Assembly (NCBI GenBank): GCA_020072645.1
Contig: JAIQGK010000004.1
Span: 86,117 to 150,116 of the forward strand
Direction of reading: 5' to 3'
Length of the DNA: 64,000 nucleotides
Source: Terriglobia bacterium
GTDB lineage: Bacteria; Acidobacteriota; Terriglobia; Terriglobales; Acidobacteriaceae
Positions within the stretch are counted from its first letter, which is position 1, and every line of letters begins with the position of its first letter. The notes beneath the pieces were generated by a model. That model did no database searches, was not told the DNA's origin, and was given only the letters and a program-made list of their open reading frames with translations. Shown piece by piece: positions 1,480-16,473 of the stretch. The translations under genes were made by a program, and so were the position numbers.

Positions 1480-3126
1480 TTGTCTTCCGGCGACCTGGGC
1501 TTGCCAAAACCCGAGCCATTGCTGCGCGTATCCGCTTTGAGCGTTGACTATGACGCTGCCGGCGGAAACGTCGTCCATGCCTTGCGCAATCTCGATCTTG
1601 AGATTGCCAACGGAGAGAGCGTTGGCGTGCTGGGCGAGTCAGGCTCCGGCAAAAGCTCACTGGCTCTGGCGCTGCTGCGGCTGCTTCCAAAAAACGCGCG
1701 TGTGGTTTCAGGAAGCATTGATTATCGCGGCCAAAATGTAGCGAAACTCTCTCCCGCAGATTTAAGAGCGATGCGCGGCGCTGAAGTTGCGCTGATTTCG
1801 CAGGAGCCTGCGCTGGCGCTGAATCCGGTTTTGTCATTGGGGCAGCAGCTTGCCGACGTGTTGCGGGCGCATGCAAAACTTACGCGCCGGGAAGTAATCG
1901 CGCGCTGCACTGAGATGTTAGGCCAGGTTGGGTTTGACGATCCTGAGCGTATTTTGCGCGCTTATCCGCACGAACTGAGCGGAGGACAGCGGCAGCGTGT
2001 GGCCATTGCCCAGGCTCTCATATGCCGGCCTAAACTCCTGATTGCCGATGAGCCCTTAAGCGCGCTGGATGCGGCCACGCAGGCAGACATTCTTGAACTA
2101 CTGCAGCGATTGAAGCGCGATCTTGGTCTGGCCGTGCTGTTTATCACGCACAACGCCGGAGCGCTGGAAGCTCTGGCGGACAACATCGTGGTTATGCGTG
2201 AAGGAGAAGCAGTCGCGCGTGGCACGATGGACAAGTTAAAAGCGAGTACGGATGACTATGTGCAGGGCATTCTGTTTCCAGAGAAAAGTCTGGCAGCGCA
2301 CGCGGTTTCATCGATAGTGAGCGGATCGCCGCTGCTGGAAGTTCGAGGGCTGAGCAAGAGATTTGTACAGAAGCGCATACTGTCGCGCAAAGAGTTTGTC
2401 GTGCAGTCGCTGGAGGGCATCGATCTTTCCTTATCCGCCGGCTCGACCGTGGCCGTGCTCGGGCGGTCCGGGTCAGGAAAGTCGACTCTGGCGCGCTGCG
2501 TCGCCGGCTTTGAGACGCCCGATGCAGGCGAGATGTTGCTGGATGGAAATCCTATCGCCACAGGCGAAAAGGATAAACGTGGTGCGCGAACACCGGTACA
2601 GATGATCTTTCAGGATGCCGCCACATCGCTCAACCCCAGATTCACGGCGCGGCAGATTGTGGCGGAGCCGCTGGAGATCGCGCGCTGGAAGACCGACGCA
2701 GATCGCACGTCTCGCGCTATGAAGTTGATGGAAGAGGTTGGCCTTGATCCTGATTGGGCTGCGCGTCTTGCCGGCGAGTTCAGCGGCGGACAACGCCAAC
2801 GGCTGGCTCTGGCACGCGCACTGGCAGCCGAGCCCAGGCTGCTCGTCATGGACGAAGCGCTCTCCGGCCTGGACATGCCCCTCCAAGCGCAGATGGTGCG
2901 CCTGCTGATGGATTTGCAGTCGCGGCACGGACTCACTTATCTCTACATCTCCCACGACCTCAACTTCATTTCGCTTTTCGCGCACGAAGTTGTAGTGATG
3001 GATGCCGGACGAATCGTGGAGCGAACAACGCCGGCGAAGCTGGGCGAAAGTACGCATCCAGCCACGCGTGAGTTAGTGGAAGCCAGCGAGCGGCTGCACG
3101 CGCCGGGAGTGGAGGCCGCAGTATGA
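1480..3126 (+). CDS. Oligopeptide/dipeptide ABC transporter, fused ATP-binding protein (DppD-DppF type)
   Basis: This 548-aa cytoplasmic protein carries two complete ABC ATPase domains. They would energise import of peptides, or possibly nickel or opines, through the two permeases encoded downstream. Domain 1 has Walker A GESGSGKSS (about 52-60), signature LSGGQRQR (166-173) and Walker B LLIADEP. Domain 2 has Walker A GRSGSGKST (328-336), signature FSGGQRQR (434-441) and LLVMDEA. In most bacteria these are separate DppD and DppF subunits, although fused forms are known. The start is TTG behind TAGGGAG. The stop overlaps the next start by four bases (ATGA), which implies translational coupling. 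Confidence 0.93.
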   Translation: MSSGDLGLPKPEPLLRVSALSVDYDAAGGNVVHALRNLDLEIANGESVGVLGESGSGKSSLALALLRLLPKNARVVSGSIDYRGQNVAKLSPADLRAMRGAEVALISQEPALALNPVLSLGQQLADVLRAHAKLTRREVIARCTEMLGQVGFDDPERILRAYPHELSGGQRQRVAIAQALICRPKLLIADEPLSALDAATQADILELLQRLKRDLGLAVLFITHNAGALEALADNIVVMREGEAVARGTMDKLKASTDDYVQGILFPEKSLAAHAVSSIVSGSPLLEVRGLSKRFVQKRILSRKEFVVQSLEGIDLSLSAGSTVAVLGRSGSGKSTLARCVAGFETPDAGEMLLDGNPIATGEKDKRGARTPVQMIFQDAATSLNPRFTARQIVAEPLEIARWKTDADRTSRAMKLMEEVGLDPDWAARLAGEFSGGQRQRLALARALAAEPRLLVMDEALSGLDMPLQAQMVRLLMDLQSRHGLTYLYISHDLNFISLFAHEVVVMDAGRIVERTTPAKLGESTHPATRELVEASERLHAPGVEAAV

Positions 3127-4091
3127 TCCGCTACTTTGTTCGGCGCGCGGGACACGGTTTGCTGATGTTGTTTGGCGTTTCCATTCTCCTGTTTCTTCTG
3201 TTTCAGGCCGCTCCCGGGGATTTCCTGAGCGAGATGAAGATGAACTCGCAGATATCGCCGGAAACGATCACCTTGCTGCGCGCTCAATACGGTCTGGACC
3301 AACCTCTGCCGGTGCGTTACTGGCAGTGGCTCAAGTCTTCCGCCAAGGGCGATTTTGGCTACTCATTTGCGTATAACGCTCCAGCATCCACGCTGCTTTG
3401 GCCGCGAGCGCGCAATACGCTGCTGCTCAGCGTTCCGGCCCTGTTGATTTCCTGGCTCATCGCGGTGCCGCTCGGTGTGCTTGCCGCGGGATGGAGAGGA
3501 CGATGGGCGGACCGTCTCTTTTCCGGGGGAACTTCTGCGCTGCTCGCGCTGCCTGACGTGCTTATCGCGCTGGTGGCGTTGCTGGTTGCTTTAAAGACTG
3601 GAGTGTTTCCTGTAGGAGGCATGACGTCAATTAATGCGCAAGACCAGGGTATGTGGGCATGGTTGCGCGATCTGGGCTGGCACATGGTTTTGCCCGTGGC
3701 GGCGCTGGTGGTGGGATCATTGACGATCATTCTGCGCCACGTGCGCGCCAGTGTAATCGAGGTGCTGGAATCTTCTTATATGCGCGCCGCTGAAGGCCAT
3801 GGGCTGCCACGCTTCAAACTGCTTTTTGGCTACGCGTTGCCGGCGGCAGCCAACCCGCTCATATCGCTTTTTGGCCTTTCCGTGGCCTTGCTGCTGAGCG
3901 TCTCGCTTCTAATCGAGGTGGTGATGAGCTGGCCTGGTATTGGCCCGCTGCTGCTGGAAGCCATCATGTCACGCGATCTTTTTCTAGTGATTGGCGCGGT
4001 GATGCTTTCCACGGTGTTCTTGATCGCAGGCAATCTAGTGGGCGATGTGCTGCTCTATGCCTTTGATCCGCGAATCAGGAGGCAGGGATGA
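3123..4091 (+). CDS. Peptide ABC transporter permease (DppB family)
   Basis: The product is a 322-aa inner-membrane protein with about six hydrophobic helices. The first follows the short basic N-terminus (MIRYFVRRAGHG), and a periplasmic segment with the family's LRAQYGLDQPLPVRYWQW region comes next. The cytoplasmic loop RAAEGHGLPRFKLLFGYALP matches the EAA motif that contacts the ATPase. The length is typical for DppB/OppB. The gene overlaps the ATPase gene by four bases and is followed by the DppC-type permease. The substrate cannot be read from the sequence. Confidence 0.93.
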   Translation: MIRYFVRRAGHGLLMLFGVSILLFLLFQAAPGDFLSEMKMNSQISPETITLLRAQYGLDQPLPVRYWQWLKSSAKGDFGYSFAYNAPASTLLWPRARNTLLLSVPALLISWLIAVPLGVLAAGWRGRWADRLFSGGTSALLALPDVLIALVALLVALKTGVFPVGGMTSINAQDQGMWAWLRDLGWHMVLPVAALVVGSLTIILRHVRASVIEVLESSYMRAAEGHGLPRFKLLFGYALPAAANPLISLFGLSVALLLSVSLLIEVVMSWPGIGPLLLEAIMSRDLFLVIGAVMLSTVFLIAGNLVGDVLLYAFDPRIRRQG

Positions 4092-4162
4092 AGTTTTTTG
4101 TGCAATCCCGAGCGCAGCGAGGGAACCCTATCGCTAAAAGGACCTTTGAGGTTCAGCTATGA
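4088..4162 (+). CDS. Possible 24-codon ORF linking the two permease genes
   Basis: An ATG overlapping the dppB-like stop opens a 24-codon frame that ends in TGA, overlapping the ATG of the next permease. Both junctions are of the ATGA kind, so translation could be passed along without a gap. The encoded peptide has no recognisable features. The DNA contains GAGCGCAGCGAG, which reads like a short dispersed intergenic repeat, so the frame may be fortuitous. Confidence 0.22.
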   Translation: MKFFVQSRAQRGNPIAKRTFEVQL

Positions 4163-5238
4163 ACCGACAGAGTAGTCTTAACCATAGTGATTCTCCGCTC
4201 CGCTCGGGATTTCACACAAAGTTCCGCATCACATGGGCGATCTGGTTCTTATTGATCATTCATGTGGTGGTCGTGCTTGCCGGGTTTGTTGCCCCTTACA
4301 GTTTTGAAACGCAAGAGCGCGAACATCCTTACGCTCCGCCCACACGCCTGCATTTTGTGGACTGCACGGGAAGGTTTCACGTTCGGCCATTCGTTTATGT
4401 CACCAAAGCGGCGGAGAACGCTCTAGATGAATATCAGCAGGATTGTTCGCAGCCGGCAGGTATCGAATTCTTTCCTAAAGGAGACAGATACAGCATCCTC
4501 GGGATGTTCTCTTCCACTCGACACCTGTTCGGCGTTCCGGCTCCCGCCAACCTTTTTCTGATGGGAACAGACGGCTATGGCCGCGACCAGTTTTCACGGT
4601 TGCTGTATGGCGGACAGGTTTCACTGTTTGCCGGCTTTGTGGCCGCGGCGTTTTCCGCGATCACCGGCCTTTTGCTGGGTGGGATCGCCGGAATGTACGG
4701 CGGCCGCCTGGATGATGCGGCCATGCGTTTTGCCGAAGTCTTTATCACCATCCCCTGGTTTTACCTGCTGATTGCCGTGCGGGCGTTTCTGCCATTGCAG
4801 ATCAGCCCGGTGGTGGCGTTCCTGCTTGTTGTTTCGGTGATTGGGATAGTCGGCTGGAGTCGTCCTGCGCGCCTGGTTCGCGGCGTGATACTGAGCGCGC
4901 GCGAGCGTAACTTTGTTCTGGCTGCCAAGGGCTTTGGAGCATCCAACACCTATCTTCTTAGAAAACACCTGATACCGCTGACGTTTAGCGTGCTGCTCAC
5001 GCAGATGGCTGTGTTGATTCCGCAGTTCATTCTGGCGGAGGTGATTCTGTCATTTCTAGGGCTGGGAATCGGCGAGCCATTTCCCAGTTGGGGCAATATG
5101 CTGGCGCAGGCGCAGCAATATCATGTGCTGGTGTCTTACTGGTGGATGCTCTTGCCGGGGCTGGCGCCGGTCCCGGTATTTCTGGCGTATCACTCATTGG
5201 CAGAGACGCTGCAGGAGCGGATAAAATCAAATATTTAG
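4159..5238 (+). CDS. Peptide ABC transporter permease (DppC family)
   Basis: This is a 359-aa inner-membrane permease. After a cytoplasmic N-terminus and a first helix (about residues 28-50) comes an unusually long periplasmic segment (about 50-135) containing two Cys residues. The conserved LMGTDGYGRDQFSRLLYG motif of DppC/OppC permeases follows, then a five-helix core with the EAA loop VLAAKGFGASNTYLLRKHLIP. It should pair with the upstream DppB-type permease. Two start regions are possible; the ATG at 4159 gives the expected DppC N-terminus. Confidence 0.92.
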   Translation: MNRQSSLNHSDSPLRSGFHTKFRITWAIWFLLIIHVVVVLAGFVAPYSFETQEREHPYAPPTRLHFVDCTGRFHVRPFVYVTKAAENALDEYQQDCSQPAGIEFFPKGDRYSILGMFSSTRHLFGVPAPANLFLMGTDGYGRDQFSRLLYGGQVSLFAGFVAAAFSAITGLLLGGIAGMYGGRLDDAAMRFAEVFITIPWFYLLIAVRAFLPLQISPVVAFLLVVSVIGIVGWSRPARLVRGVILSARERNFVLAAKGFGASNTYLLRKHLIPLTFSVLLTQMAVLIPQFILAEVILSFLGLGIGEPFPSWGNMLAQAQQYHVLVSYWWMLLPGLAPVPVFLAYHSLAETLQERIKSNI

Positions 5239-5261
5239 TCCAGAAGAGAAAGCGGGTTTTT

Positions 5262-7010
5262 TTGAGGTTACAAGGCGCTACGCTGTTCATTGCTGCCGCG
5301 TTGCTGCCGGTTTTCGCGACTGCGCAGACCGCCACACAAGAGGACCTCTTTCGTACCACGTCCGAAGCCGGCATTCGCGGCGGGAATCTTGTCATCGCCC
5401 AGCGTTCTGAACCGCGGACCCTCAATCCAGTCGTTGCCATTGACCAGAATGCTCTCGGGATCAATGCGCGCCTCCAGGCCGATCTTATTCATATCAACCG
5501 GGCCACACAGAAAACCGAGCCTGCGCTAGCCAAGTCCTGGACAGTTTCAAAAGATGGCACAGTATTCATCTTGAAGCTGCGCCGCGGCATCCGGTTTTCT
5601 GACGGCCAGCCTTTTGACGCAGACGACGTGCTCTTCTCCTTTCAGATGTATCTGGACGAGAAAGTGCATTCGTCGCAGCGCGACTTGCTGATTATTTCCG
5701 GCAAGCCGACGAAGGTGGAAAAACTTGATGCATACACAGTCAGGTTTACCTTCCCCTCGCCTTACTCAGCGGCGGAGAGGGTATTCGATGGACTTGCCAT
5801 TCTGCCACGCCACCTGCTGGAGAAGGACTATCAGGCAGGAAAGATCGGACAGGACTGGACGCTTAATACGCCGCCTGCGCAGATCGCTGGGTTGGGAGCT
5901 TTCAGGCTGAAGCAGGTAGTTCCAGGCGACCGCATCGTTCTGGAGCGCAATCCTTATTATTGGAAAGTCGATGCCAAGGGGCAGAGGCTGCCATATCTCG
6001 ACGAGCTGACCTTCGTGGTGGTGCCCACGCAGGACGCGCAGGTGATCCGCTTTCAGGCAGGCGATTCGCAAATCATCAGTAGCTTGAGCGCGGACAACTA
6101 CGCCACTCTGGAAGCCGAGGAGAAAACAAGGCACTTCAAGATGTACGATGCGGGCCCCGGGCTTGAATACAACTTCCTGATGTTTAACCTGAACAGCGAT
6201 ACGGAAGGACGTCTTCCGGAGGTGGCGCGCAAACAAAAGTGGTTCCGTGACGTGCGCTTTCGCCAGGCCGTTTCCGCGGCCATTGACCGGGCCAGCATAG
6301 TCCGGCTGGTATATCGCAACCGGGCGGCAGCCCTTGCGACCCATGTCAGTCCCGGCAATAAAGCCTGGTTTGACTCGTCCATAGCGGTTCCAGCGCGCTC
6401 CGTGCCGCATGCGCGTGACTTACTAAAGGCAGCCGGGTTCTCCTGGAAGGGCGACAACACCCTTATCGATTCAACCGGACAGCCTGTGGAGTTCACGATT
6501 CTGGTGGGCTCCAGCAACACGCAACGCGGACAGATAGCAACTCTGGTGCAGAATGATTTGAAGGCAGTAGGGATCTCCGCACATGTCGTGCCAATGGAAA
6601 TCCGTTCGGCCACAGATCGCGTGCTGAACACGCACGACTATGACGCCATCGTAATGGGTTTGGTCAGCGGCGATGCCGATCCAACGCCGGACATGAATGT
6701 CCTGGTTTCCAGCGGACAGACTCACTTGTGGCACCTGGGCGAGAAAGATCCAGCCACGCCATGGGAAGCGGAACTGGACCAATTAATGCAAAAGCAGCTT
6801 GTCACCCTGAATTACCAGCAGCGCAAAAAAATCTATGATCGAGTACAGGAGGTGCTGGCACAGCAACTTCCTATGGTGTATCTGGCCAGCCCCAATATTC
6901 TGGTTGGGGCGCAGGAAAACCTAGGTAATTTCCATCCAGCCATCATTGAACAGTATACTTTTTGGAACGCAGAAGAACTTTTTTGGCACCCCCCCGCCGG
7001 AAAGAAGTAA
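5262..7010 (+). CDS. Extracellular peptide-binding protein of ABC transporter (SBP family 5)
   Basis: This is the periplasmic solute receptor of the transporter, 582 aa from the TTG at 5262. That start, preceded by a GAGAAAG stretch, gives a clean signal peptide (RLQGATLFIAAALLPVFATAQ). The open frame extends upstream into the permease gene, but that part is a shadow. Family 5 features include RSEPRTLNPVVAID, LAKSWTVSKDGTVFILKLRRGIRFSDG (hallmark region) and the late RQAVSAAIDR motif. No lipobox Cys is present, so it is probably soluble in the periplasm. It lies 23 bases after the permease and 25 bases before the sigma-factor gene, suggesting one long transcript that joins peptide uptake to the protease locus. 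Confidence 0.9.
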   Translation: MRLQGATLFIAAALLPVFATAQTATQEDLFRTTSEAGIRGGNLVIAQRSEPRTLNPVVAIDQNALGINARLQADLIHINRATQKTEPALAKSWTVSKDGTVFILKLRRGIRFSDGQPFDADDVLFSFQMYLDEKVHSSQRDLLIISGKPTKVEKLDAYTVRFTFPSPYSAAERVFDGLAILPRHLLEKDYQAGKIGQDWTLNTPPAQIAGLGAFRLKQVVPGDRIVLERNPYYWKVDAKGQRLPYLDELTFVVVPTQDAQVIRFQAGDSQIISSLSADNYATLEAEEKTRHFKMYDAGPGLEYNFLMFNLNSDTEGRLPEVARKQKWFRDVRFRQAVSAAIDRASIVRLVYRNRAAALATHVSPGNKAWFDSSIAVPARSVPHARDLLKAAGFSWKGDNTLIDSTGQPVEFTILVGSSNTQRGQIATLVQNDLKAVGISAHVVPMEIRSATDRVLNTHDYDAIVMGLVSGDADPTPDMNVLVSSGQTHLWHLGEKDPATPWEAELDQLMQKQLVTLNYQQRKKIYDRVQEVLAQQLPMVYLASPNILVGAQENLGNFHPAIIEQYTFWNAEELFWHPPAGKK

Positions 7011-7035
7011 CCCGGAAGCAACGCCGGAAAATTTG

Positions 7036-7632
7036 ATGGAAGAAAACACCAAAGAACTAACTTTGCCCACAATCCGGGACGCTGGGACCGCTGAAGATGA
7101 GCGGCTGGTGCAGGAGTGTCTGAGCGGCGATGAAAAGGCCTGGAACACGCTGATCGATAAATACAAGCGCCTGATTTACTCCGTACCCGTGAAGTACGGC
7201 TTCAGCCCGGATGATGCGGGTGATATTTTCCAGAATGTCTGTATCGATCTTTTTACCAATCTTTCCAAGGTGAGGAAGATTGAATCATTGCGCTCGTGGC
7301 TGATTACGGTGGCCACACATAAATGCTTCCATTGGAAGAAGCAGCAGCGCGGAGAGGTTGAGCTGGATGCAATGGAGCAGGAATTGGCGGAGGAAATTGC
7401 GGCCGCTCCCATGGTACTTCAGGAGGTGCAGGAGGAACAGGCGGTGCGCGACGCCATCCTGCGGCTTACCCCGCGTTGCGCAGAACTGGTGAAGATGTTG
7501 TTCTATGAGCAGCCGCCGGTGCCATACAACGAGGTGGCCCAGAAGCTTGGATTGGCGACCGGATCAATAGGCTTTATCAGGGGCCGTTGTCTCAACAGGC
7601 TGCAAAAAATCCTGTCTGAGCTGGGCTTCTAG
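7036..7632 (+). CDS. ECF-type RNA polymerase sigma factor
   Basis: From the ATG at 7036 this encodes 198 aa. Sigma region 2 covers about residues 17-95 (LVQECLSGDEKAWNTLIDKY, DIFQNVCIDLF, SWLITVATHKCFHWKKQQ), and a C-terminal region 4 helix-turn-helix covers about 130-195 (LTPRCAELVKMLFYEQPPVPYNEVA). The frame is open further upstream into the binding-protein gene, but that extension has no sigma features. The stop TAG is immediately followed by the ATG of the CHAT gene. By context it may be controlled by the zinc-finger protein at 10658 or by proteolysis; neither is shown. Confidence 0.88.
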   Translation: MEENTKELTLPTIRDAGTAEDERLVQECLSGDEKAWNTLIDKYKRLIYSVPVKYGFSPDDAGDIFQNVCIDLFTNLSKVRKIESLRSWLITVATHKCFHWKKQQRGEVELDAMEQELAEEIAAAPMVLQEVQEEQAVRDAILRLTPRCAELVKMLFYEQPPVPYNEVAQKLGLATGSIGFIRGRCLNRLQKILSELGF

Positions 7633-10509
7633 ATGGTCGCACAGGAACAGAATTTCGGGCTGGAGCAATGGGTGACAGAGCTGGCCGCCATTGCCGACGA
7701 GGAGCAGCGTCGCGCTTTTCTGGCTGCGCGTCCGCAAACCCGCAGCACAGCAGCCGTGGATTCTCTTTACAAGGCCGTGGTCACTTTTGCGCGGGTTGAC
7801 CTGCAAAAAGCTGACAGAGTGGCCCAGGCCGGTTCGTGGATAGCGGCACAGATTAATGATCCCTGCTCAACTGCGCAAAGCGCCCGCGCCGTGGGCCACG
7901 TTCTATACCTGACTGGAAAATATCAGCAGGCCATCCTGGAGTATGAAAAAGCGCTGGCTATCTTTGAGAGGCTTGGACGTGACCTTGATTATGCCCGCAC
8001 CATTAGCGGCGCGTTGCAAAGCCTGATTTATGACGGCCAATATGAAAGGGCGTTTCGCCTGGGGGAGCGGGCCCGGTCAATTTTTCACGCACATAAAGAC
8101 CGGCTCCGGCTGGCAAGACTGGATAGCAATATTGCCAATATTTATTACCGGCAGGATAGATTCCAGGAAGCGGTTGACCTCTATGAAGGGGCGTATAACG
8201 AATTTCTTCAATGCGGCGAACCCCTGGACATCGCCGCCGTACTGCGGAACCTGGCTGTCTGCTACATCAGTCTGAATGATTTTCCCCGCGCCGAGGAGAC
8301 CTATCGCCTGGCGCGCCAGCACTGCATGGAGCAGGGCTTCTCTCTTCTGGTGGCTGAAGCCGATTACAACGTTGCCTACCTGCATTATCTGCGGGGTGAA
8401 TATCTCCGCGCCATAGAACTCTATGACCAAACGCGCAAGCTCTGCGCCGAACTGGGTGATGGCTATCACCAGGCACTTTGCGACCTGGACGAATCGGAAA
8501 TTTATCTCGAATTAAACCTGACGGAAGGCGGTACCGAGCTGGCGCTCGACGCTTTTGCGGCCTTCACCGAGCTAGGCATGACGTACGAGGCCGGCAAGGC
8601 CGCTACCTTTTCCGCCATCGCCATCAGTCAGCAGGGAAGGTACAAGCAGGCAATTGAATCTTTCGATCTTGCGCGCGACCTTTTCGTGAAGGAAGGGAAT
8701 CCGCTCTGGCCGCCGCTGATTGATCTGTACAAAGCGCTGGTTTTTTACCAGGCCGGAGAGAATGATCGGGCGGAAGATCTTGCGGTAAGGGCCCTCGCGT
8801 ACTTTGGCAACTCGGTGTTGCCGTCAAAGGCGGCATTATGCGAATTGCTGCTGGCCGCGCTGGAACTGCGCTGTTCAGACACGGAAGAGGCCCGTCGTTA
8901 CTGCAGCGCTGCGCTTTCCCGGCTTACGCATCTGGATTCGCCCGCCACCTACCAGGCCTACTTCATGCTGGGCCAGGCCGAGGAAGCCAGCGGGAACACC
9001 GAACTAGCTCGCCAGGCGTATGAGCAGGCCTTCAAGAAGTTGGAAGACCTGCGCAGCAACCTGGGCAAGGAAGAGTTGAAGATTGCATTTCTCAAGAACA
9101 AGCTGACGGTTTATGAAGGTCTGGTGGTCACGTCGCTGGCCGTGAGCTTTGGCGTGCGGGCGCAGAAAGAGGCGTTTGGCTATATTGAGCAGGCCAAGTC
9201 GCGCAGTCTGGCCGACCTGATTGCTTTTCGCACAGCATCAATTTCAACTTCCTCCCGAGGGCCGCAGGAGCTTTCGCCCGCCATGGGAGAGTTCCGCGAC
9301 TTGCGCCAGAAGCTGAACTGGACATATCACCAGATCGAGATTGAAGAATTGAATCCAGGCGGCACCTCAAACGAGCGCATTCAGCAATTACGGCAGCTAA
9401 GCCGTACATATGAAGACGCGCTGGTGAAGGCATTTTCACAGGTGCAGAGTGTGAACCGGGAATTTGCCAGCCTGCAAAGCGCCAAAACGGTTTCCGTGGA
9501 AGAACTGCAAGAGATTTTGCCGGAGAATACGCTGCTGCTGGAGTACTACACGGCGCGAAATCGCTTTTATGTGTGCCTGGTTTCGCGAAAACAATTCAAG
9601 ATTGTGGCCTTGAGTGATGTAAACGGCGTTCGGGAAAAGCTCCGTCTTTTGCAGCTCCAGTTGGCCAAGTTTCGCCTGGGACCCGACTATATCCAGCCTC
9701 TGGAAAAGGCGCTTCTGGGAGCCACACAGGCACATCTGGAGGAGCTTTACGCTCTCTTGATCGCCCCGATCCGCGACCAGCTTAACGCTGAGCACCTGAT
9801 TGTCGTCCCGCATGCATTTCTGCATTACCTGCCGTTCCATGCGCTATCTGACGGAGAACACTACCTTATCGACCATTTCTCCGTTTCCTATGCTCCCAGC
9901 AGCAGCATCTTCGCTGTATGCCAGAAAAAGCCGTCTCGAACAGATGGTGGCGATACGCTGATATTGGCCGTTCCGGACGCCCGCGCGCCATACATTGAAG
10001 AAGAAGCTCATTTCGTGGCGTCTGCCATGGGCAATGTACGGCTTTTTCTGGGAGAACAAGCCACTGAGGAACAGCTGCGCCTGCATGGGCCAGGCAGCCG
10101 GTTTATTCACATTGCCACGCACGGTTACTTTCGACAGGATAACCCGATGTTTTCTTCGATCCGTCTCGGCAATTCACTGCTAAGCTTGTTTGATTTGTAT
10201 CAGTTACATTTTGATGCCGAGCTGGTTACCTTGAGCGGATGTGGCACCGGAATGAATGTGGTGATCGGCGGTGACGAGCTGATTGGGTTGGTTCGAGGCC
10301 TACTGTACGCAGGAGCGCAGACCCTGATGGTGAGCTTGTGGGAGGTCCATGACCAGAGTACGGCGGAATTCATGCGGGACTTCTACCAGGGATACAGCAG
10401 TTCGGCCAATAAAGCGAATGCATTACGAAATGCGGTGCTTAAGTTGAAGCAAAGACATCCACATCCGTACTATTGGGCGGCATTTGCCCTGGTGGGAAAA
10501 TTCGCATGA
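7633..10509 (+). CDS. TPR-CHAT protein, predicted caspase-like protease
   Basis: This 958-aa protein has no signal peptide and is probably cytoplasmic. Residues about 70-480 form a long array of tetratricopeptide helices (for example AVGHVLYLTGKYQQAILEYE and AVCYISLNDFPRAEETYRLA). A helical connector follows, then a C-terminal CHAT domain of about 300 residues. The predicted catalytic dyad is visible: His830 in IHIATHGYF and Cys870 in VTLSGCGTG, with the later GLVRGLLYAGAQTLMVSLWEV segment typical of CHAT. CHAT proteins are clan CD proteases related to caspases and separase. Known TPR-CHAT proteins are allosterically switched proteases, as in the type III-E CRISPR complex; no CRISPR genes are present here. 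The gene abuts the sigma gene with no spacer, so the two should be co-translated. Confidence 0.88.
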   Translation: MVAQEQNFGLEQWVTELAAIADEEQRRAFLAARPQTRSTAAVDSLYKAVVTFARVDLQKADRVAQAGSWIAAQINDPCSTAQSARAVGHVLYLTGKYQQAILEYEKALAIFERLGRDLDYARTISGALQSLIYDGQYERAFRLGERARSIFHAHKDRLRLARLDSNIANIYYRQDRFQEAVDLYEGAYNEFLQCGEPLDIAAVLRNLAVCYISLNDFPRAEETYRLARQHCMEQGFSLLVAEADYNVAYLHYLRGEYLRAIELYDQTRKLCAELGDGYHQALCDLDESEIYLELNLTEGGTELALDAFAAFTELGMTYEAGKAATFSAIAISQQGRYKQAIESFDLARDLFVKEGNPLWPPLIDLYKALVFYQAGENDRAEDLAVRALAYFGNSVLPSKAALCELLLAALELRCSDTEEARRYCSAALSRLTHLDSPATYQAYFMLGQAEEASGNTELARQAYEQAFKKLEDLRSNLGKEELKIAFLKNKLTVYEGLVVTSLAVSFGVRAQKEAFGYIEQAKSRSLADLIAFRTASISTSSRGPQELSPAMGEFRDLRQKLNWTYHQIEIEELNPGGTSNERIQQLRQLSRTYEDALVKAFSQVQSVNREFASLQSAKTVSVEELQEILPENTLLLEYYTARNRFYVCLVSRKQFKIVALSDVNGVREKLRLLQLQLAKFRLGPDYIQPLEKALLGATQAHLEELYALLIAPIRDQLNAEHLIVVPHAFLHYLPFHALSDGEHYLIDHFSVSYAPSSSIFAVCQKKPSRTDGGDTLILAVPDARAPYIEEEAHFVASAMGNVRLFLGEQATEEQLRLHGPGSRFIHIATHGYFRQDNPMFSSIRLGNSLLSLFDLYQLHFDAELVTLSGCGTGMNVVIGGDELIGLVRGLLYAGAQTLMVSLWEVHDQSTAEFMRDFYQGYSSSANKANALRNAVLKLKQRHPHPYYWAAFALVGKFA

Positions 10510-10657
10510 GAGAGAAAAATCGCACTCTGGGTATATTTTTCGCCCCATGCCCCACTCTTATGCTTAGAAGCAGGCTCATCCGTCGACTGCTAAAAAGGGG
10601 AACATGGACCCGGAAGCCGTGTTCCCCCTTGATACCCAGACGGGGAAAAGTCACCTT

Positions 10658-11293
10658 ATGACTGAAGCTGTTCGCCATTTCGATATCACTGAGTGGGCTG
10701 ATTACGTCAGGAGCACGGTCTCCAGCGATCAGCACAAGCTGATGCAGGCCCATTTGCAGGGTGGCTGCTCCAAGTGCGAGCGAATCAAGGTTTTGTTGTC
10801 AAAGTTCGCTGCGGTATGTTCGCGCGAAGCGTCGTATCAGATTCCGCGGGCTGCGGAACTGCAGGTGAAGGCAATGATCGGCCTGGCCAAAGCGCCGCGC
10901 CGCTCTGCCCTGCAACGTTTGTGGGCGACCCTGGTTTATGACAGCGTGAATGATCCGCAACCAGTGGGCGTACGCGGGACCCACCAGATTAATCGCCAGG
11001 TGCTTTTCCATGCCGGCGACTACTCCGTCGATCTTCGATTTGAGCACGAAAAAGGATCTGCCAGCATGGTGTTGGTCGGCCAGATTGCCAACCAGAAAAC
11101 ACCAGACGAGCTGCTGGCCAACCTCCCCGTAATTCTTGTAGCAGGAAACCGCGAAGTCACCCGTTCGATCAGCAATACTTTCGGTGAATTCCAGCTTGAG
11201 TATGTTCCGGAAAGCGATCTTCGCTTGCTGGTGCCGCTCGAGTCCAGGGGCCAGGAACTGGAAGTACAGTTAGGCAAGACGCCCCAACTGTAG
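10658..11293 (+). CDS. Putative zinc-binding anti-sigma-like protein with C-terminal beta domain
   Basis: From the ATG at 10658 (preceded by ACGGGGAAAAG) this is 211 aa. An in-frame ATG at 10604 has poorer spacing. The N-terminal 40 residues end in His32, Cys37 and Cys40 (HLQGGCSKC), the His-x4-Cys-x2-Cys pattern of zinc-containing anti-sigma factors. The C-terminal half (about 105-205) is rich in beta strands, with VDLRFEHEKGSASMVLVGQI and FGEFQLEYV resembling carboxypeptidase-regulatory Ig-like folds. There is no membrane helix, so unlike most anti-sigma factors it is probably soluble. It lies between the CHAT gene and the subtilases and is a candidate partner of the sigma factor. Confidence 0.65.
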   Translation: MTEAVRHFDITEWADYVRSTVSSDQHKLMQAHLQGGCSKCERIKVLLSKFAAVCSREASYQIPRAAELQVKAMIGLAKAPRRSALQRLWATLVYDSVNDPQPVGVRGTHQINRQVLFHAGDYSVDLRFEHEKGSASMVLVGQIANQKTPDELLANLPVILVAGNREVTRSISNTFGEFQLEYVPESDLRLLVPLESRGQELEVQLGKTPQL

Positions 11294-11337: not shown

Positions 11338-12723
11338 ATGAGGAAATTTCTTCAACTTTTACTGGTGTGTCTGGCGCTTGGTCTGCCGCTCACGGCGCAG
11401 ACAAGCTACATTCTCACGGCGTCCCCCAGCAATGTGCAGAGCGTAGTGAACCAGCACGGCCTCACGGTGGTGAAAGAGCTTTATGACGGCACGAATTGCG
11501 TGATGCTGGTGACCTCGGTATCCGCCGATGTTGCCGGCACTGAAACTGAAGTCGAATCGGATGTGATGGTAGTTGGTTTTGAGCCGGAGCAGCGCGCGGT
11601 ATTGCCGGAGTTGACAGGTCTTACGCAGCCCACGTTGACTCAATCCACGACCAGCATTCTTGATACGCTGCCAGGACGCACTTTGGTCCCCTTCTTCGGT
11701 AGCGTCGTGCCAAGCAATTACAGCACCCAGACCGCAACCAATATCATTCGCCTGGGCGATGCCCGTACAGCCACAAAGCTGACCGGCTCAGGCACCGTGG
11801 CGATTATTGATACAGGCGCTGACCTGACACATCCTGCTCTATCCGGCGCGCTGGTTACGGGCTATGACTTTACCCGTGATACTTTGGGCGCCTCTGAGCT
11901 GGCAGATCTTAATCCCACAGTAGCCGCCCAGTTGCAGCAATCCACCACCAGCATCCTGGATGCGCAGAACCTCCTGGTACTTAATTCGGCGACGGCGATC
12001 CTGAACCAATCCACAACTTCGATTCTCGATCAGTCAACGACTTCGATTCTGGATAGTTCGCTGGCTGAGTTCGGCCATGGCACAATGACGGCCGGAATCG
12101 TTCACCTGGTAGCGCCAACGGCAAAGATTATGCCGCTGAAAGCTTTTCGCGCCGATGGCTCTTCAAACCTCTCAGATATCATCCGAGCCATCTACTACGC
12201 AGCTGACAATGGTGCCAATGTAGTGAGCATGAGCTTCAGCATGTCGCAGTCTTCACCCGGCTTGCAGGCTGCGATCCAGTACGCGCTGGGCAAAAACGTA
12301 ACGATGATTGCTTCGTCCGGCAATGACGGCCTGAAAACCCTGGTTTATCCCGCCAGCTACGGCGGAGTGCAGGGAATCGGTTCCAGCACCAGCACTGATC
12401 TTAGAAGCGCGTTCTCCAACTATGGTTCCGGCGTGGTCACCTTTGCCGCTCCAGGAGAAGGCGTCATCACCACGTATCCAGGCGGCAACTATGCTGCAGG
12501 ATGGGGCACATCCTTTAGCACACCGATGGTAGCCGGTGCTGCTGCACTGGTACTGCAAGCACGTCCGGCGAGCAAGCCCGGCGATATTACCAATGCACTC
12601 TCCAAGACCAAGCAGATTAGTGACATGGGATATGGCCGTATCGATCTCTATCAGTCACTCATGAACGTGGTCAGCAGCAGCGGAACGAGCTCGACGACGA
12701 CCACAAGCACCAGCGGCAAGTAA
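11338..12723 (+). CDS. Exported subtilisin-like serine protease (S8) with four QSTTSILD motifs
   Basis: This 461-aa protein starts with a signal peptide (to about residue 20), then an inhibitor-I9-like prodomain (about 22-85) and an S8 catalytic domain. The triad is Asp158 (AIIDTGAD), His247 (FGHGTMTAG) and Ser392 (GTSFSTPMVAG), all intact, with oxyanion Asn in SSGNDG. The octapeptide QSTTSILD occurs at 102-109, 201-208, 224-231 and 232-239. The first copy is near the prodomain-catalytic boundary and the others are in a loop between Asp and His. The C-terminus is a short Ser/Thr tail. It lies 44 bases after the zinc-finger gene and probably belongs to the same unit. Confidence 0.9.
   Translation: MRKFLQLLLVCLALGLPLTAQTSYILTASPSNVQSVVNQHGLTVVKELYDGTNCVMLVTSVSADVAGTETEVESDVMVVGFEPEQRAVLPELTGLTQPTLTQSTTSILDTLPGRTLVPFFGSVVPSNYSTQTATNIIRLGDARTATKLTGSGTVAIIDTGADLTHPALSGALVTGYDFTRDTLGASELADLNPTVAAQLQQSTTSILDAQNLLVLNSATAILNQSTTSILDQSTTSILDSSLAEFGHGTMTAGIVHLVAPTAKIMPLKAFRADGSSNLSDIIRAIYYAADNGANVVSMSFSMSQSSPGLQAAIQYALGKNVTMIASSGNDGLKTLVYPASYGGVQGIGSSTSTDLRSAFSNYGSGVVTFAAPGEGVITTYPGGNYAAGWGTSFSTPMVAGAAALVLQARPASKPGDITNALSKTKQISDMGYGRIDLYQSLMNVVSSSGTSSTTTTSTSGK
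11641..12054 (+). repeat. Four coding copies of the QSTTSILD octapeptide
   Basis: Copies lie at 11641-11664, 11938-11961, 12007-12030 and 12031-12054, the last two in tandem. Their 24-base DNA units differ at several synonymous positions (serine as TCC, TCA, AGC or TCG; leucine as CTT, CTG or CTC) while the peptide is identical. This argues for selection on the protein rather than a recent DNA duplication. Confidence 0.92.
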
Positions 12724-13214
12724 AAGAGCTTATAGCCCCCCAAAACATCTCCCTCAAAGGCCTCAAAATTTATTAATAAGTCTAAGGATTGGGCCCGTTT
12801 TCAGGCCTTATTTCAGAGTTTATTAGGAACAGCTAATCTACAAGATTTAGACTTAGGGCGATCCTAATCATTTTGTCAATTGTGAAATAAGTATTTTGGA
12901 ATCAGCATCTTGATTCATTCTTAAGCTGCAGCCTGTGGCATCTTTAATTTCGTCATAAATTCGCTTCTGGATCACGCCTTTTGTATTCGTAAAAAAAATC
13001 CTTTACACCCCAGGCAAATACTGTCGCTATACTCCCCTCAGGTCGACGGAATCGACAAAAAGCGATCTCGGCGTGACGCGCGGAAACAGGCCGGTTTTGG
13101 GCGTCGTGCCCCGGTGCTACCGTATTTTTGAGCGTAGACAAAGTGAACGGTTGTGACCGCCGTCACGGAGCGATACGACTCAGCATGGCAAACTACCAAG
13201 GGAAGATTTGCGAT
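12724..13214. other. AT-rich gap between the two subtilase genes
   Basis: This 491-base interval is clearly richer in A and T than its neighbours, especially 12745-13010, and contains no convincing gene. A TTTACA at 13002-13007 and a TATACT at 13028-13033 resemble promoter boxes but are 20 bases apart, which is too long for a strong sigma-70 site. The second subtilase probably has its own promoter here. Confidence 0.4.
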
Positions 13215-14675
13215 ATGAGAGACGGAATAGCGGAACAGACAGCAGCACGAAAGAATCTGCTTCTAAAGCCGTTAAATAGAGAGCTGGCTTTTTTTGATGC
13301 GTCAGAGGATGGAAGATCCTTCCGAAGCAAGTCGCGTCCTTCTCTGAGCAGCAGATTCAATGTGCTGGCAAAAATTTGTGTCGGCCTGTGTCTTTTGATG
13401 GGCCTGTCGCTCTGGGGACAGGACAACTTCGTCCTGGTAACCTCGCCTGACAAAGTGCAGGACGTTTGCGGACGACACGGTCTCACGCAACTGACACAAG
13501 GCTCGTCCCACGGCGTTTTTCTGGTTTCAACTTCTTCTGTGGATCCAAGTATTTCTACTGACAGTGCAGTGCAAAGTTTTGAGCATAATCATGCTCTTGG
13601 CTTGCCTGAGCTTTCCGGGGCCACAAGCGCCAGCCTGACCCAATCCACCACATCGATTCTGGATGGCCTGCCGGATCGCACCGTGGTCAACTATTTCGGA
13701 TCGCAGGTGGCCAGCAATTATGTAACTCAGCCGGCTACCAATATCATCCGCCAGCATGATCTGCAGACTTCTTCCGGCTTTACCGGCACTGGGATTACGG
13801 TTGCCGTTATTGATACAGGAGTTGATACATCGCACCCGGCGCTGCAAAATGTTCTAGCTCCTGGATTCAATTTCATCGCCAACGTCAATGATCCTTCAGA
13901 ATTGGTCGATTTGAGCCCGGCGATGGCTGCCGCGCTGGCGCAGTCCACCACCAGCATTCTCGATGGCCAGAACCTGGTGGAGATGAACGCTTCCACGGTA
14001 GCAATCCTCAGCCAATCAACCACCAGCATTTTGGATGGACCTCCCGGCGAGTTCGGTCACGGAACCATGACGGCAGGCCTGGTCCACCTGGTGGCTCCCG
14101 GCGCGTACATCATGTCATTGAAGGCTTTTGCCGGCGACGGAAGCTCCGATCTCTTTAACATCGTTCGCGCAATTTATTACGCTGCGGACAACGGCGCGAA
14201 CGTTATCAGCATGAGTTTTGAAATTGCACAGGGTTCACCGGCTCTGCAAAACGCCATCCAATATGCGCTCAGCAAAAACGTGGTGGTAGTGGCGGCTTCA
14301 GGGAATGACGGCGGACAGATTCTGGTTTTCCCATCGGCTTATAACAGCGTGATCGGAGTCGGCTCGACAAATAACTCTGACACGAAGAGCAGCTTCACCA
14401 ATTTTGGCACCAATTCAGTATTCATCGCGGCCCCCGGCGAAGGCGTAATCACTACGTATCCGGGCGGAAACTATGCGGCGGGCTGGGGAACGTCATTCAG
14501 CACTCCGCTGGTTGCCGGAGAAGCAGCGCTCGTTTTGCAGGCGCGGCCCACGTATAAACCGGGCGATGTGGCGAATGCAATTTCCCGGGCGTTTGCCGTG
14601 CAGCAGATGGGGCATGGACGCGTCGATCTTTGTCTTGCGTTGTCCAGCATCGGCGTTGGCAGCTTTTGTAAGTAA
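13215..14675 (+). CDS. Second exported subtilisin-like protease (S8) with three QSTTSILD motifs
   Basis: This is a paralogue of the preceding protease. The ATG at 13215 is chosen because AAGGGAAG lies just upstream; the frame is open from a TTG at 13128 without a ribosome site. The 486-aa product has an unusually long N-terminus (about 48 residues) before the hydrophobic export segment FNVLAKICVGLCLLMGLSLW. A short prodomain and the catalytic domain follow, with Asp200, His282 and Ser427 all present. QSTTSILD is at 143-150, 243-250 and 267-274. As in its paralogue, the last copy ends eight residues before the catalytic His. A terminator follows at 14755. Confidence 0.88.
   Translation: MRDGIAEQTAARKNLLLKPLNRELAFFDASEDGRSFRSKSRPSLSSRFNVLAKICVGLCLLMGLSLWGQDNFVLVTSPDKVQDVCGRHGLTQLTQGSSHGVFLVSTSSVDPSISTDSAVQSFEHNHALGLPELSGATSASLTQSTTSILDGLPDRTVVNYFGSQVASNYVTQPATNIIRQHDLQTSSGFTGTGITVAVIDTGVDTSHPALQNVLAPGFNFIANVNDPSELVDLSPAMAAALAQSTTSILDGQNLVEMNASTVAILSQSTTSILDGPPGEFGHGTMTAGLVHLVAPGAYIMSLKAFAGDGSSDLFNIVRAIYYAADNGANVISMSFEIAQGSPALQNAIQYALSKNVVVVAASGNDGGQILVFPSAYNSVIGVGSTNNSDTKSSFTNFGTNSVFIAAPGEGVITTYPGGNYAAGWGTSFSTPLVAGEAALVLQARPTYKPGDVANAISRAFAVQQMGHGRVDLCLALSSIGVGSFCK
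13641..14036 (+). repeat. Three coding copies of the QSTTSILD octapeptide
   Basis: Copies are at 13641-13664, 13941-13964 and 14013-14036. Codon choice differs among them and from the four copies in the neighbouring gene, but all seven peptides are identical. In this gene every copy is followed by Gly. Confidence 0.92.
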
Positions 14676-14784: not shown

Positions 14785-16473
14785 TCAATAAAGTCCCGGG
14801 GACATGGGCGCATAACGGCGGAAGAAGCTGTTCTGCTTCCATTGCGGGCGGTTTGCGCTCTCAGCAAGACGTATCATCAGCCCGAGGGTAACGTCTTCAT
14901 ATTTGCCGGCTGCCGCCAGATCTACTGGCTGGTCCAGATCGTCAGAAGGGGCATGGTAGCGCTGAGTTAGCCAGTCCTTAAAAATTGCCTGTTGTGGCGA
15001 CCCTGGCTCAAATCCCACCTTCATGGCCAGTGCCGGCACACCATGCCGGATAAAATTGTACTGGTCACTGCGGATAAACGAATTGCGTTGCGGTTCAGGA
15101 TCGGGCTGCACCTGTACGCCTAACGGTTGAGCGACTTCGCGCACCATGTCACCCAGGTCGGATTCGGCCAGTCCATATACCGTCAAGACTTTTAACGGCA
15201 CAATGGGAAGAAACATGTCGATGTTGATGTTGGCAATCATCGATCCCGGCTTAACCGTAGGATGTGTGGTGAAATAGCGCGAACCGAGCAGGCCTTTCTC
15301 TTCGCCGGTGACAAACAAAAAAAGCAGAGACCGCTTCAGTTTCTTTGGCGATTTTTTCAAGGATGCGATCAGATCAAGCAGCACCGCGCTGCCGGAAGCA
15401 TTATCCATGGCGCCGTTATAAATCCGGTCGCCGTTGATGGGTTCACCCACTCCCAGATGATCAAGATGCGCTGAGAGCACCACGTATTCATTTTTAAATT
15501 TTGGATCGCTGCCGGGAAGTTCCGCTACCAGGTTGGCCGACTCCACCATCTTCTTATTGACTGAAGCCTTTGCACGAATGGTTGGAACAAGAGGGAAGCG
15601 CGGCAGAGGCTTGCGGTCCTTCACCAGATCAATCAGTTCCTGCAACGTGTGTCCGGAGCCTTCAAAGAGCTTTTGGGCTTTTTCCGGATTGAAAATGACT
15701 GCCAGCTTCTCTCCGGATGTCTCGTCAAACTCAGCACCTTTTAAGGCCATGTTGGGATGGGCGCGGTTGGCCGACATACGCGACCAGGGAATATCCATGG
15801 CTGCAGGATTCAGAATAGTAATCACGCCCACGGCCCCGGCTTTGCGCAGCGCCTTCCAGCGCTCTCCAGCCGACTGATAGTGCGAAGCCAGAGCGCCCGG
15901 AATCTCCGCCGGAGCGCCCGGGAAAATTACGACCACCTTGTCTCTCAGGTCCAGACCGGTAAGATCGTCATGACCCAACTCCGGTATGGTGAGTCCATAG
16001 CCGGCAAAGACCAGCGGCGCATCCACGGCGGGCGCAAGATCAACACGCGTGCTGAAGATAGCGTCGTCTCCCAGCGTAAGCGGTTCCACCTGCTCATTGT
16101 GTATTAGAGCCAGACTGGAATCCTGCTCCACAATCTGTCTCGACTCAAAGCGGACCGGCTGGTAATACGACCGTGAGCCCACAGGCTCCAGTCCAGCGCT
16201 TTTTAGCTGTTCAACAACGTATTCCTGCGCCTTACGCAAGCCGGGACTTCCGGTTTCGCGGCCTTCCATATCGTCGGAGGCCAAAACTTTCACATAGTTC
16301 CACCATGAAGCGCCGTTGAAATCTGGGGCCTTTGCGGCCGCCATGCCCTTGTCGGCTGTTGCCTTTTTGTTTTCCGGCTTCGTGGAAGACGGTGGCTGGG
16401 CTTGCGCGGTAAAAGCAGCACTCGTGAAAAATATGGCAGTAAGCAGCAGGAATGCGTTTCGCATGACGGCCAA
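14785..16473 (-). CDS. Exported M28-family aminopeptidase with PA domain
   Basis: This 562-aa protein has a signal peptide (FLLLTAIFFTSAAFTAQAQ), a protease-associated (PA) insert around residues 120-260, and an M28 zinc peptidase domain in the C-terminal half. Metal-binding segments are recognisable: LSAHLDHLG (His and Asp), AMDNASGSAVLLDL (Asp) and VTGEEKGLLGSRYF (catalytic Glu-Glu), with later ligands in NINIDM and near the C-terminus. It should remove N-terminal residues from peptides in the periplasm or outside the cell. A TTG start and an ATG three codons later are both possible behind GGAGGAG. It converges on the subtilase locus, and its activity would fit peptide scavenging. Confidence 0.88.
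   Translation of the reverse strand: MAVMRNAFLLLTAIFFTSAAFTAQAQPPSSTKPENKKATADKGMAAAKAPDFNGASWWNYVKVLASDDMEGRETGSPGLRKAQEYVVEQLKSAGLEPVGSRSYYQPVRFESRQIVEQDSSLALIHNEQVEPLTLGDDAIFSTRVDLAPAVDAPLVFAGYGLTIPELGHDDLTGLDLRDKVVVIFPGAPAEIPGALASHYQSAGERWKALRKAGAVGVITILNPAAMDIPWSRMSANRAHPNMALKGAEFDETSGEKLAVIFNPEKAQKLFEGSGHTLQELIDLVKDRKPLPRFPLVPTIRAKASVNKKMVESANLVAELPGSDPKFKNEYVVLSAHLDHLGVGEPINGDRIYNGAMDNASGSAVLLDLIASLKKSPKKLKRSLLFLFVTGEEKGLLGSRYFTTHPTVKPGSMIANINIDMFLPIVPLKVLTVYGLAESDLGDMVREVAQPLGVQVQPDPEPQRNSFIRSDQYNFIRHGVPALAMKVGFEPGSPQQAIFKDWLTQRYHAPSDDLDQPVDLAAAGKYEDVTLGLMIRLAESANRPQWKQNSFFRRYAPMSPGLY

Follow-up and report, generated by a model that had tools for sequence, protein, structure and literature searches.

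In the RRNPP/RRNPPA systems (Rap-Phr, PlcR-PapR, NprR, PrgX, AimR), a precursor is exported through Sec, extracellular proteases cut a peptide of 5-10 residues from it outside the cell, and this peptide is bound in the concave surface of a tetratricopeptide repeat (TPR) superhelix (PMC10075063, PMC11343458, PMC9765709). Some Rap-Phr systems have pheromones in tandem copies, which extracellular proteases cut from a small propeptide (PMC11343458). Here we describe a locus of a Terriglobia bacterium (Acidobacteriota) in which the octapeptide QSTTSILD is exactly repeated in two neighbouring subtilases, S8a and S8b, and almost certainly serves as a ligand for a TPR-CHAT protein encoded in the same operon. 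The window, that is, the whole stretch of DNA analysed, comprises 64,000 nucleotides (assembly GCA_020072645.1, contig JAIQGK010000004.1, positions 86,117 to 150,116).

The locus resembles RRNPP systems in its short peptide and TPR groove and probably in an exported precursor. Here an oligopeptide (Opp) importer is encoded next door, the one pointer to the peptide uptake and altered receptor activity that are common to that family. It follows an RRNPP-like logic but is not a member, departing from three of the five published criteria (PMC10075063): the precursor is a subtilase of ~460 aa with many exact copies rather than a protein of 10-100 aa, the receptor is a TPR-CHAT protein of 958 aa rather than 250-500 aa, and one conserved gene stands between the receptor and precursor genes, which are adjacent in RRNPP. 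As for the other two, the receptor matches TPR models and would, from co-variation, recognise the peptide through them, and a strongly hydrophobic N-terminal stretch, as for Sec export, is present in 169 of the 179 octapeptide subtilases by a hydropathy criterion. Further differences are that no DNA-binding domain was found in TPR-CHAT, that its partner is an extracytoplasmic function (ECF) sigma factor and that the host belongs to the Acidobacteriota, not the Bacillota.

The fusion of TPRs to CHAT recalls Csx29 of Craspase, whose model aligns weakly with the CHAT part (E 3e-15). However, the score of 56 bits lies below the cut-off of 300, the conserved operon consists of Opp, sigma, CxxC and S8 genes with no CRISPR partner and what the TPR part matches, unlike in Csx29, is a short peptide from a secreted protease. 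By fold and sequence, its nearest solved relatives are the TPRs of LGN/Pins (LGN TM-score ~0.56 by query) and kinesin light chain. Many LGN/Pins TPR domains have been solved with bound partners, and the TPRs of both groups hold extended peptides in their groove; these are, however, eukaryotic scaffold or motor adaptors, which lack both a CHAT and a private peptide that co-varies with them. Yeast alpha-factor and neuropeptide precursors are secreted and carry several identical, species-specific copies of a peptide. Those precursors are inert, whereas the precursor described here is itself a protease, and its receptor is cytoplasmic.

Results

An exactly repeated octapeptide

All seven QSTTSILD copies listed in a preliminary description of this DNA were recovered at their places on the plus strand (Table 1). 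When the complete 6.4-Mb genome was searched with a degenerate pattern, no QSTTSILD beyond these seven appeared (a control pattern gave zero matches), and the idea that additional copies at other sites serve as CHAT targets was rejected on that basis. Copies are placed at two sites, the stretch that joins the prodomain to the catalytic domain and an insert that separates the catalytic Asp from the catalytic His; many relatives lack the copy at the prodomain boundary. The spacing of eight residues from the last copy to the catalytic His was likewise confirmed in both subtilases (DSSLAEFGH, DGPPGEFGH); the residue numbers 143, 243 and 267 for the S8b copies presuppose a start at 13215, a start codon that is not certain. 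Membership of peptidase family S8 is supported by PF00082 and by the Asp-His-Ser triad motifs IDTG, HGT and GTSFS in the alignment, and the N-terminus of S8a is hydrophobic (MRKFLQLLLVCLALGLPLTAQ). In an AlphaFold2 model of S8a (mean predicted local distance difference test, pLDDT, 77.5), the octapeptide segments 92-108 and 201-241 form low-confidence internal stretches and the remainder resembles pro-subtilisin E and other subtilisins. A buried core strand, which the preliminary description had named as the contrary outcome, is thus not what this predicted model suggests: the octapeptides fall in low-confidence loops.

Homologues were present in 56 of the 100 related genomes searched. In the final set, exact octapeptide repeats occur in 179 of 199 related subtilases, amounting to 561 copies (counted in the scanned region of the subtilases) of 62 different octapeptides, the same within a locus and different from locus to locus. 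Variants by genome include QSTAGILD, QSTSTVLE, QSTAGILE, QSVTPILE, QSTVAFLD, QSTGAILD (15 copies), QSTASVLN (up to 17), QETTPILD and QSTAAILE, with named loci in Acidobacteriaceae, Bryobacterales, Acidiferrales, Vicinamibacteria and Thermoanaerobaculia; subtilases of other phyla retrieved with the same query carried no octapeptide arrays. Many of the loci come from metagenome assemblies and are not independent, and the weights and tree-based pairs used below lessen this kinship but do not remove it. Among the octamers of the region in the first set of relatives, 262 were exact and 11, 3 and 6 had one, two and three mismatches, followed by background; by this count, exact repetition is far beyond chance. 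Identity between copies is 1.0 within the eight residues (true by construction) and falls to 0.31 and 0.22 at the flanks. The repeat unit, as judged from the sequences, is eight residues with largely free flanks.

The seven copies differ in DNA from one to the next, and since Ser 5 is encoded by TCN in some and AGC in others, they are not recent DNA duplicates, which upholds the earlier argument from synonymous codons that selection acts on the peptide. A DNA-level artefact, in which copies are alike through recent duplication, slippage or gene conversion, deserves hardly any credence. Tandem arrays do occur, array L069 has repeated DNA units, and codon identity between copies is slightly above that of random synonymous choice (3.62 vs 3.10 of 8), but every copy is distinct in DNA in 172 of the 179 subtilases. 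For the genus of the window itself the artefact is already refuted: among the three species with QSTTSILD, same-position copies share 6.0, 5.4 and 4.6 of 8 codons between species, whereas two different copies from a single genome have 3.86 in common, the same level as unrelated copies compared across species (3.83). Because same-position codons across species exceed those within a genome, each copy has its own history, its identity being kept by selection; gene conversion and recent duplication were rejected by this comparison.

Some arrays are not uniform. Three loci (L063, L253 and L053) carry mixed arrays, namely QSTVSLLN x6 with QSTVALLN x5, QSTAAILE x3 with QSTTAILE x2, and QSTVAVLD x2 with QSSVAVLD, and could have been caught partway through a coordinated switch. 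In L064 and L050 the octads at the usual place are similar and not identical (QSAMDLLD, QSMMDLLE and QSCMDVLD; DSTAAVVD with DSTSAVVD x3), and exact identity is relaxed there. Five further loci (L065, L066, L069, L070 and L077), from another family of the same order, have S8 proteins with 3-17 QSTASVLN copies.

Co-variation with the TPR groove

A receptor for the octapeptide would be expected to co-vary with it. Partial Mantel tests over 30-54 loci gave r 0.35-0.41 (p <=0.001) between the TPR part of TPR-CHAT and the octapeptide, and no co-variation for the remainder of TPR-CHAT, the sigma factor or the S8 domain (S8 partial r ~0). For the CHAT catalytic domain, the larger tests showed no positive co-variation (partial r -0.16 to -0.26). 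A weak signal came in one test from the N-terminal part of the small CxxC protein (p 0.015), and OppA had a partial r of 0.32 (p 0.012). A generic signal arising from a better distance estimate for the TPRs was rejected, as 8-column windows of other segments never reached the value of the octapeptide (0/195 and 0/277). The octapeptide signal lies mainly in CHAT residues 101-280. In held-out decoding with pairs from the first set, the true octapeptide had a mean rank of 0.16 for TPR pairs, against 0.34-0.60 for other segments (S8 domain 0.43) and a chance value of 0.5. We regard the match between octapeptide and TPR part as near certain. For OppA as a specific peptide reader, one test was positive (partial r) and one negative (decoding).

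Mutual information over 99 octapeptide/CHAT pairs resolves this match into single residues. Three pairs, 2/279, 8/122 and 6/165, greatly exceed all others, with z 9.1, 8.8 and 8.3 in CHAT, followed by 8/92, 3/209, 3/169 and 4/202; maxima for the controls (sigma, CxxC protein, S8 domain, OppA) are z 4.3-5.1. Octapeptide residue 8 and CHAT residue 122 pair as D:R (81), D:K (1), N:R (3) and E:I/V/L (10), with zero exceptions. For 2/279 we found S:H in 77/78, H:V/L/I in 8/8, E:R in 4/4, R:Q in 4/4 and Y:H in 3/3; for 6/165, V:I/L in 30/30, I:S/T/A/N in 40/43 and F:G in 7/8; and for 4/202, V:A/G in 33/33 and A:V/I in 32/35. The chemistry of the pairs is what a contact would predict, with salt bridges and size complementarity. 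The position-8 rule was recorded before later loci were added and held in 31/31 readable ones (26 D:R, 1 D:K, 2 N:R, 2 E:I), one Lys being treated as Arg. Locus L248, at first an apparent exception at residue 122, ceased to be one once each S8 was paired with its nearest upstream CHAT: the CHAT first used is located downstream of the S8, and the contig ends within the one upstream.

When the tree was restricted to CHAT residues 481-958, leaving out the TPR part, about 20 independent switches went in the expected direction and almost none in the opposite one. Independent pairs on supported branches agreed in 8/8 cases for 4/202 (p 0.008), 3/3 for 8/122, 4-5/5 for 2/279 and about 4/4 for 6/165, the last three having too few such pairs for significance singly. 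The pairs are also ordered along the superhelix: Y92 and R122 go with octapeptide residue 8, S165 with 6, A202 and R205 with 4, V209 with 3 and H279 with 2 (Spearman -0.93, top 8 TPR pairs). This order fits an octapeptide that would lie antiparallel along TPR repeats 1-6. The groove of a TPR superhelix is lined by its A helices. When the TPR part was modelled with AlphaFold2 (mean pLDDT 92), these helices held each of the 12 best-scoring pairs that fall within residues 77-314 (p 4e-5). This test is clearer than that on the mean score of canonical concave TPR positions, which shows a weak enrichment (p 0.03) over residues 81-280 and none of significance over wider ranges.

The preliminary description had proposed a cleavage or docking site, either for self-processing or for CHAT. 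Docking to the CHAT protein gains strong support from the residue-by-residue co-variation with the TPR groove, so that the octapeptide can almost certainly be regarded as a TPR-CHAT ligand. Cleavage by CHAT finds no such support: the catalytic domain lacks positive co-variation, export signals by hydropathy occur in 1/108 TPR-CHATs compared with the figure of 169/179 for the subtilases, and the last octapeptide residue (D, E or N) is instead matched by TPR residue 122. The CHAT protein does belong to the CHAT proteases (PF12770), with His830 kept in 104/108 and Cys870 in 106/108 relatives. As a site matched by the catalytic domain of either S8 or CHAT, the octapeptide was rejected for lack of co-variation. 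For S8 (maximum z 4.3) this counts against a self-processing match; self-processing by the subtilase to release the peptide is possible.

Operon context and proposed private channels

The conserved operon order is oligopeptide importer, ECF sigma factor, TPR-CHAT, small CxxC protein and subtilase(s) (Table 1). For the fused ATPase of the importer, the nearest NCBIfam models are oligopeptide/dipeptide/nickel importers, and the stop codon of the sigma factor abuts the TPR-CHAT start. The sigma gene lies directly upstream of CHAT in 87/91 loci and OppA directly upstream of sigma/CHAT in 50/61 testable loci (median identity 54%), while S8 loci without CHAT have OppA anywhere in 1/27; OppA is also present in Vicinamibacteria and Thermoanaerobaculia loci. 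The small CxxC protein appears anti-sigma-like by inspection only, and it had no Pfam or NCBIfam match and no match to a known anti-sigma family. Apart from a generic subtilase model and a weak match to IetS, a search for known anti-phage defence systems returned nothing.

Octapeptides are shared within a system and differ between systems. In 10/10 cases where a CHAT is followed by two or more S8, one octapeptide is common to all of them. Among S8 genes at other sites of a genome, 15/19 have the same octapeptide as a CHAT-linked S8 of that genome. Genomes with two CHAT systems have two different octapeptides.

Two loci about 10 kb apart on one contig (L044 and L045) differ in this way, with QSTVAFLD and with QSTVSLLN or QSTVALLN. 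Genome G090 (L061, L071-L076) has seven S8 loci with seven octapeptides, SAMASLLD, QSSASFID, PSTVALLD, QSEAGFLD, QSDAGFLD, QSDVAFLD and ESAGGFLD, several with a nearby CHAT; these loci may be parallel channels.

Table 1. Features of the octapeptide locus, in positions of the window.
Feature	Position	Strand	Evidence or remark
Opp-type ABC ATPase, two fused ATPase domains (OppDF-like)	1480..3126 (start codon uncertain)	+	Pfam ABC_tran in two stretches
Opp permease, OppB-like	3123..4091	+	BPD_transp_1 and its N-terminal domain; Opp2B/Opp4B nearest
Opp permease, OppC-like	4159..5238	+	BPD_transp_1; Opp4C nearest
Peptide-binding protein of importer, OppA-like, SBP_bac_5	5235..7010 (start uncertain)	+	PF00496 E 5e-86
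ECF sigma factor	7021..7632 (start uncertain)	+	TIGR02937 E 5e-22
TPR-CHAT protein, 958 aa, TPR superhelix and caspase-like CHAT	7633..10509	+	PF12770 E 4e-66, TPR models
TPR repeats 1-6, CHAT residues 81-281, proposed octapeptide groove	7873..8475	+	co-variation
Groove key codons	Y92 7906-7908, R122 7996-7998, S165 8125-8127, A202 8236-8238		
Groove key codons, continued	R205 8245-8247, V209 8257-8259, H279 8467-8469		
Small protein, 229 aa, H-x4-C-x2-C stretch	10604..11293	+	conserved between CHAT and S8
Secreted-type subtilase S8a, 461 aa, four octapeptide copies	11338..12723	+	PF00082 E 1e-37
QSTTSILD copy 1 of S8a	11641..11664	+	between prodomain and catalytic domain
QSTTSILD copy 2 of S8a	11938..11961	+	Asp-His insert
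QSTTSILD copy 3 of S8a	12007..12030	+	tandem with copy 4
QSTTSILD copy 4 of S8a	12031..12054	+	ends 8 residues before catalytic His
Secreted-type subtilase S8b, three octapeptide copies	13128..14675 (open reading frame; likely start 13215)	+	PF00082 E 4e-39
QSTTSILD copy 1 of S8b	13641..13664	+	
QSTTSILD copy 2 of S8b	13941..13964	+	
QSTTSILD copy 3 of S8b	14013..14036	+	ends 8 residues before catalytic His

Discussion

The octapeptide is probably a locus-private signal, and a cycle of export, release, Opp import, TPR-CHAT and sigma would be the simplest account of all the parts. The subtilase would be exported and would excise the exposed arrays from itself or its twin. The freed octapeptide could then enter through the Opp importer of the same operon and bind the TPR groove of TPR-CHAT, thereby switching the CHAT protease, which might act on a partner (the small CxxC protein would be the simplest choice) and so free the ECF sigma factor to raise operon expression. 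Channels would be private to each genome and to each system within it. What the sequences themselves carry is the exact repetition, the selection and the TPR co-variation; to these we add release, import and output by inference. The import step in particular leans on gene neighbourhood, because a specificity of OppA finds no support in held-out decoding.

Several points weigh against this cycle. Sec export is judged by hydropathy alone; cleavage sites show no conservation outside the eight residues, a weakness for release and for the exact mature ends. OppA decodes no better than chance (0.60) and is missing from the position directly upstream in 11/61 loci, and the role given to the CxxC protein is conjecture. 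No CHAT was detected near the QSTASVLN S8 loci in the DNA examined, where some contigs are short. The 31 loci that validated the position-8 rule overlap the discovery families and include just two Glu loci, both with Ile.

The co-variation of the TPRs is compatible with any contact with the octapeptide, including one inside the cell, where TPR-CHAT might grip the arrays of the new subtilase before export to keep it inactive, deliver it or cut it close to the arrays, which extends the idea of the preliminary description. Such docking would require neither free peptide nor import, spacer-free arrays could bind within a longer chain, and the His-Cys pair of CHAT is retained (104/108 and 106/108). 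We nevertheless consider this main rival unlikely: the export signals are on the subtilases and none on TPR-CHAT, and it leaves unexplained both the conserved peptide importer (50/61 CHAT loci) and the upkeep of 2-17 exact copies. Nor does it explain why distant CHAT-less S8 match the CHAT-linked octapeptide (15/19), though docking of all of them is possible.

Recognition among the subtilases themselves, with the octapeptide as pseudo-substrate, activation site or homotypic stacking motif assembling subtilases, could draw on the copies at the prodomain boundary and right before the catalytic His and on the octapeptide common to the twin subtilases. It does not predict the TPR match, however, and the TPR-specific co-variation, together with an S8 catalytic domain that does not co-vary (maximum z 4.3, partial r ~0, held-out rank 0.43) and the loss of the prodomain-boundary copy in many relatives, makes it very improbable. 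We give still less weight to a plain nutrition operon, that is, a secreted protease and a peptide importer under a regulator, with the octads as a structural loop. Protease and Opp importer are a common nutritional pairing, but neither identity within a locus alongside free variation between loci nor the TPR match is explained in this way.

Under the signalling cycle that we prefer, the locus would, on balance, represent a hitherto undescribed class of peptide communication, used by the Gram-negative Acidobacteriota, with a multi-copy signal in a possibly self-releasing protease, re-import through a dedicated Opp importer, and a TPR-CHAT reader in control of an ECF sigma factor. Its specificity could be read residue by residue, and numerous channels would be orthogonal to one another. 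What would be new is the architecture (a protease as multi-copy precursor, the TPR-CHAT reader, the ECF sigma partner), an imported peptide read by TPRs being known. Acidobacteriota are among the most abundant soil phyla, and peptide signalling seems not to have been described there: our literature searches found none for this phylum, and no paper with the octapeptides searched for. Candidate signal peptides could be named for dozens of species straight from sequence, together with their receptor and contact residues, so that ligand, receptor, specificity and channel insulation become testable. The octapeptide would also supply a ligand for a TPR-CHAT protein outside CRISPR. Food for evolutionary thinking is how up to 17 peptide copies and a receptor groove could shift together without DNA conversion.

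Other features

A more distant S8 match occurs in the same genome (G000:C20:5959-6480, open frame ~1575 aa), for which no relation to the octapeptide system was seen. On the minus strand, convergent with S8b, positions 14785-16473 encode an exported-looking protein that is M28-type aminopeptidase-like by eye, its membership of the operon not being shown. Unrelated to the octapeptides, an open reading frame of 851 aa at 18217-20772 contains QINDRQ-like hexapeptides repeated in a row, together with a tail rich in Gly, Ser and His.

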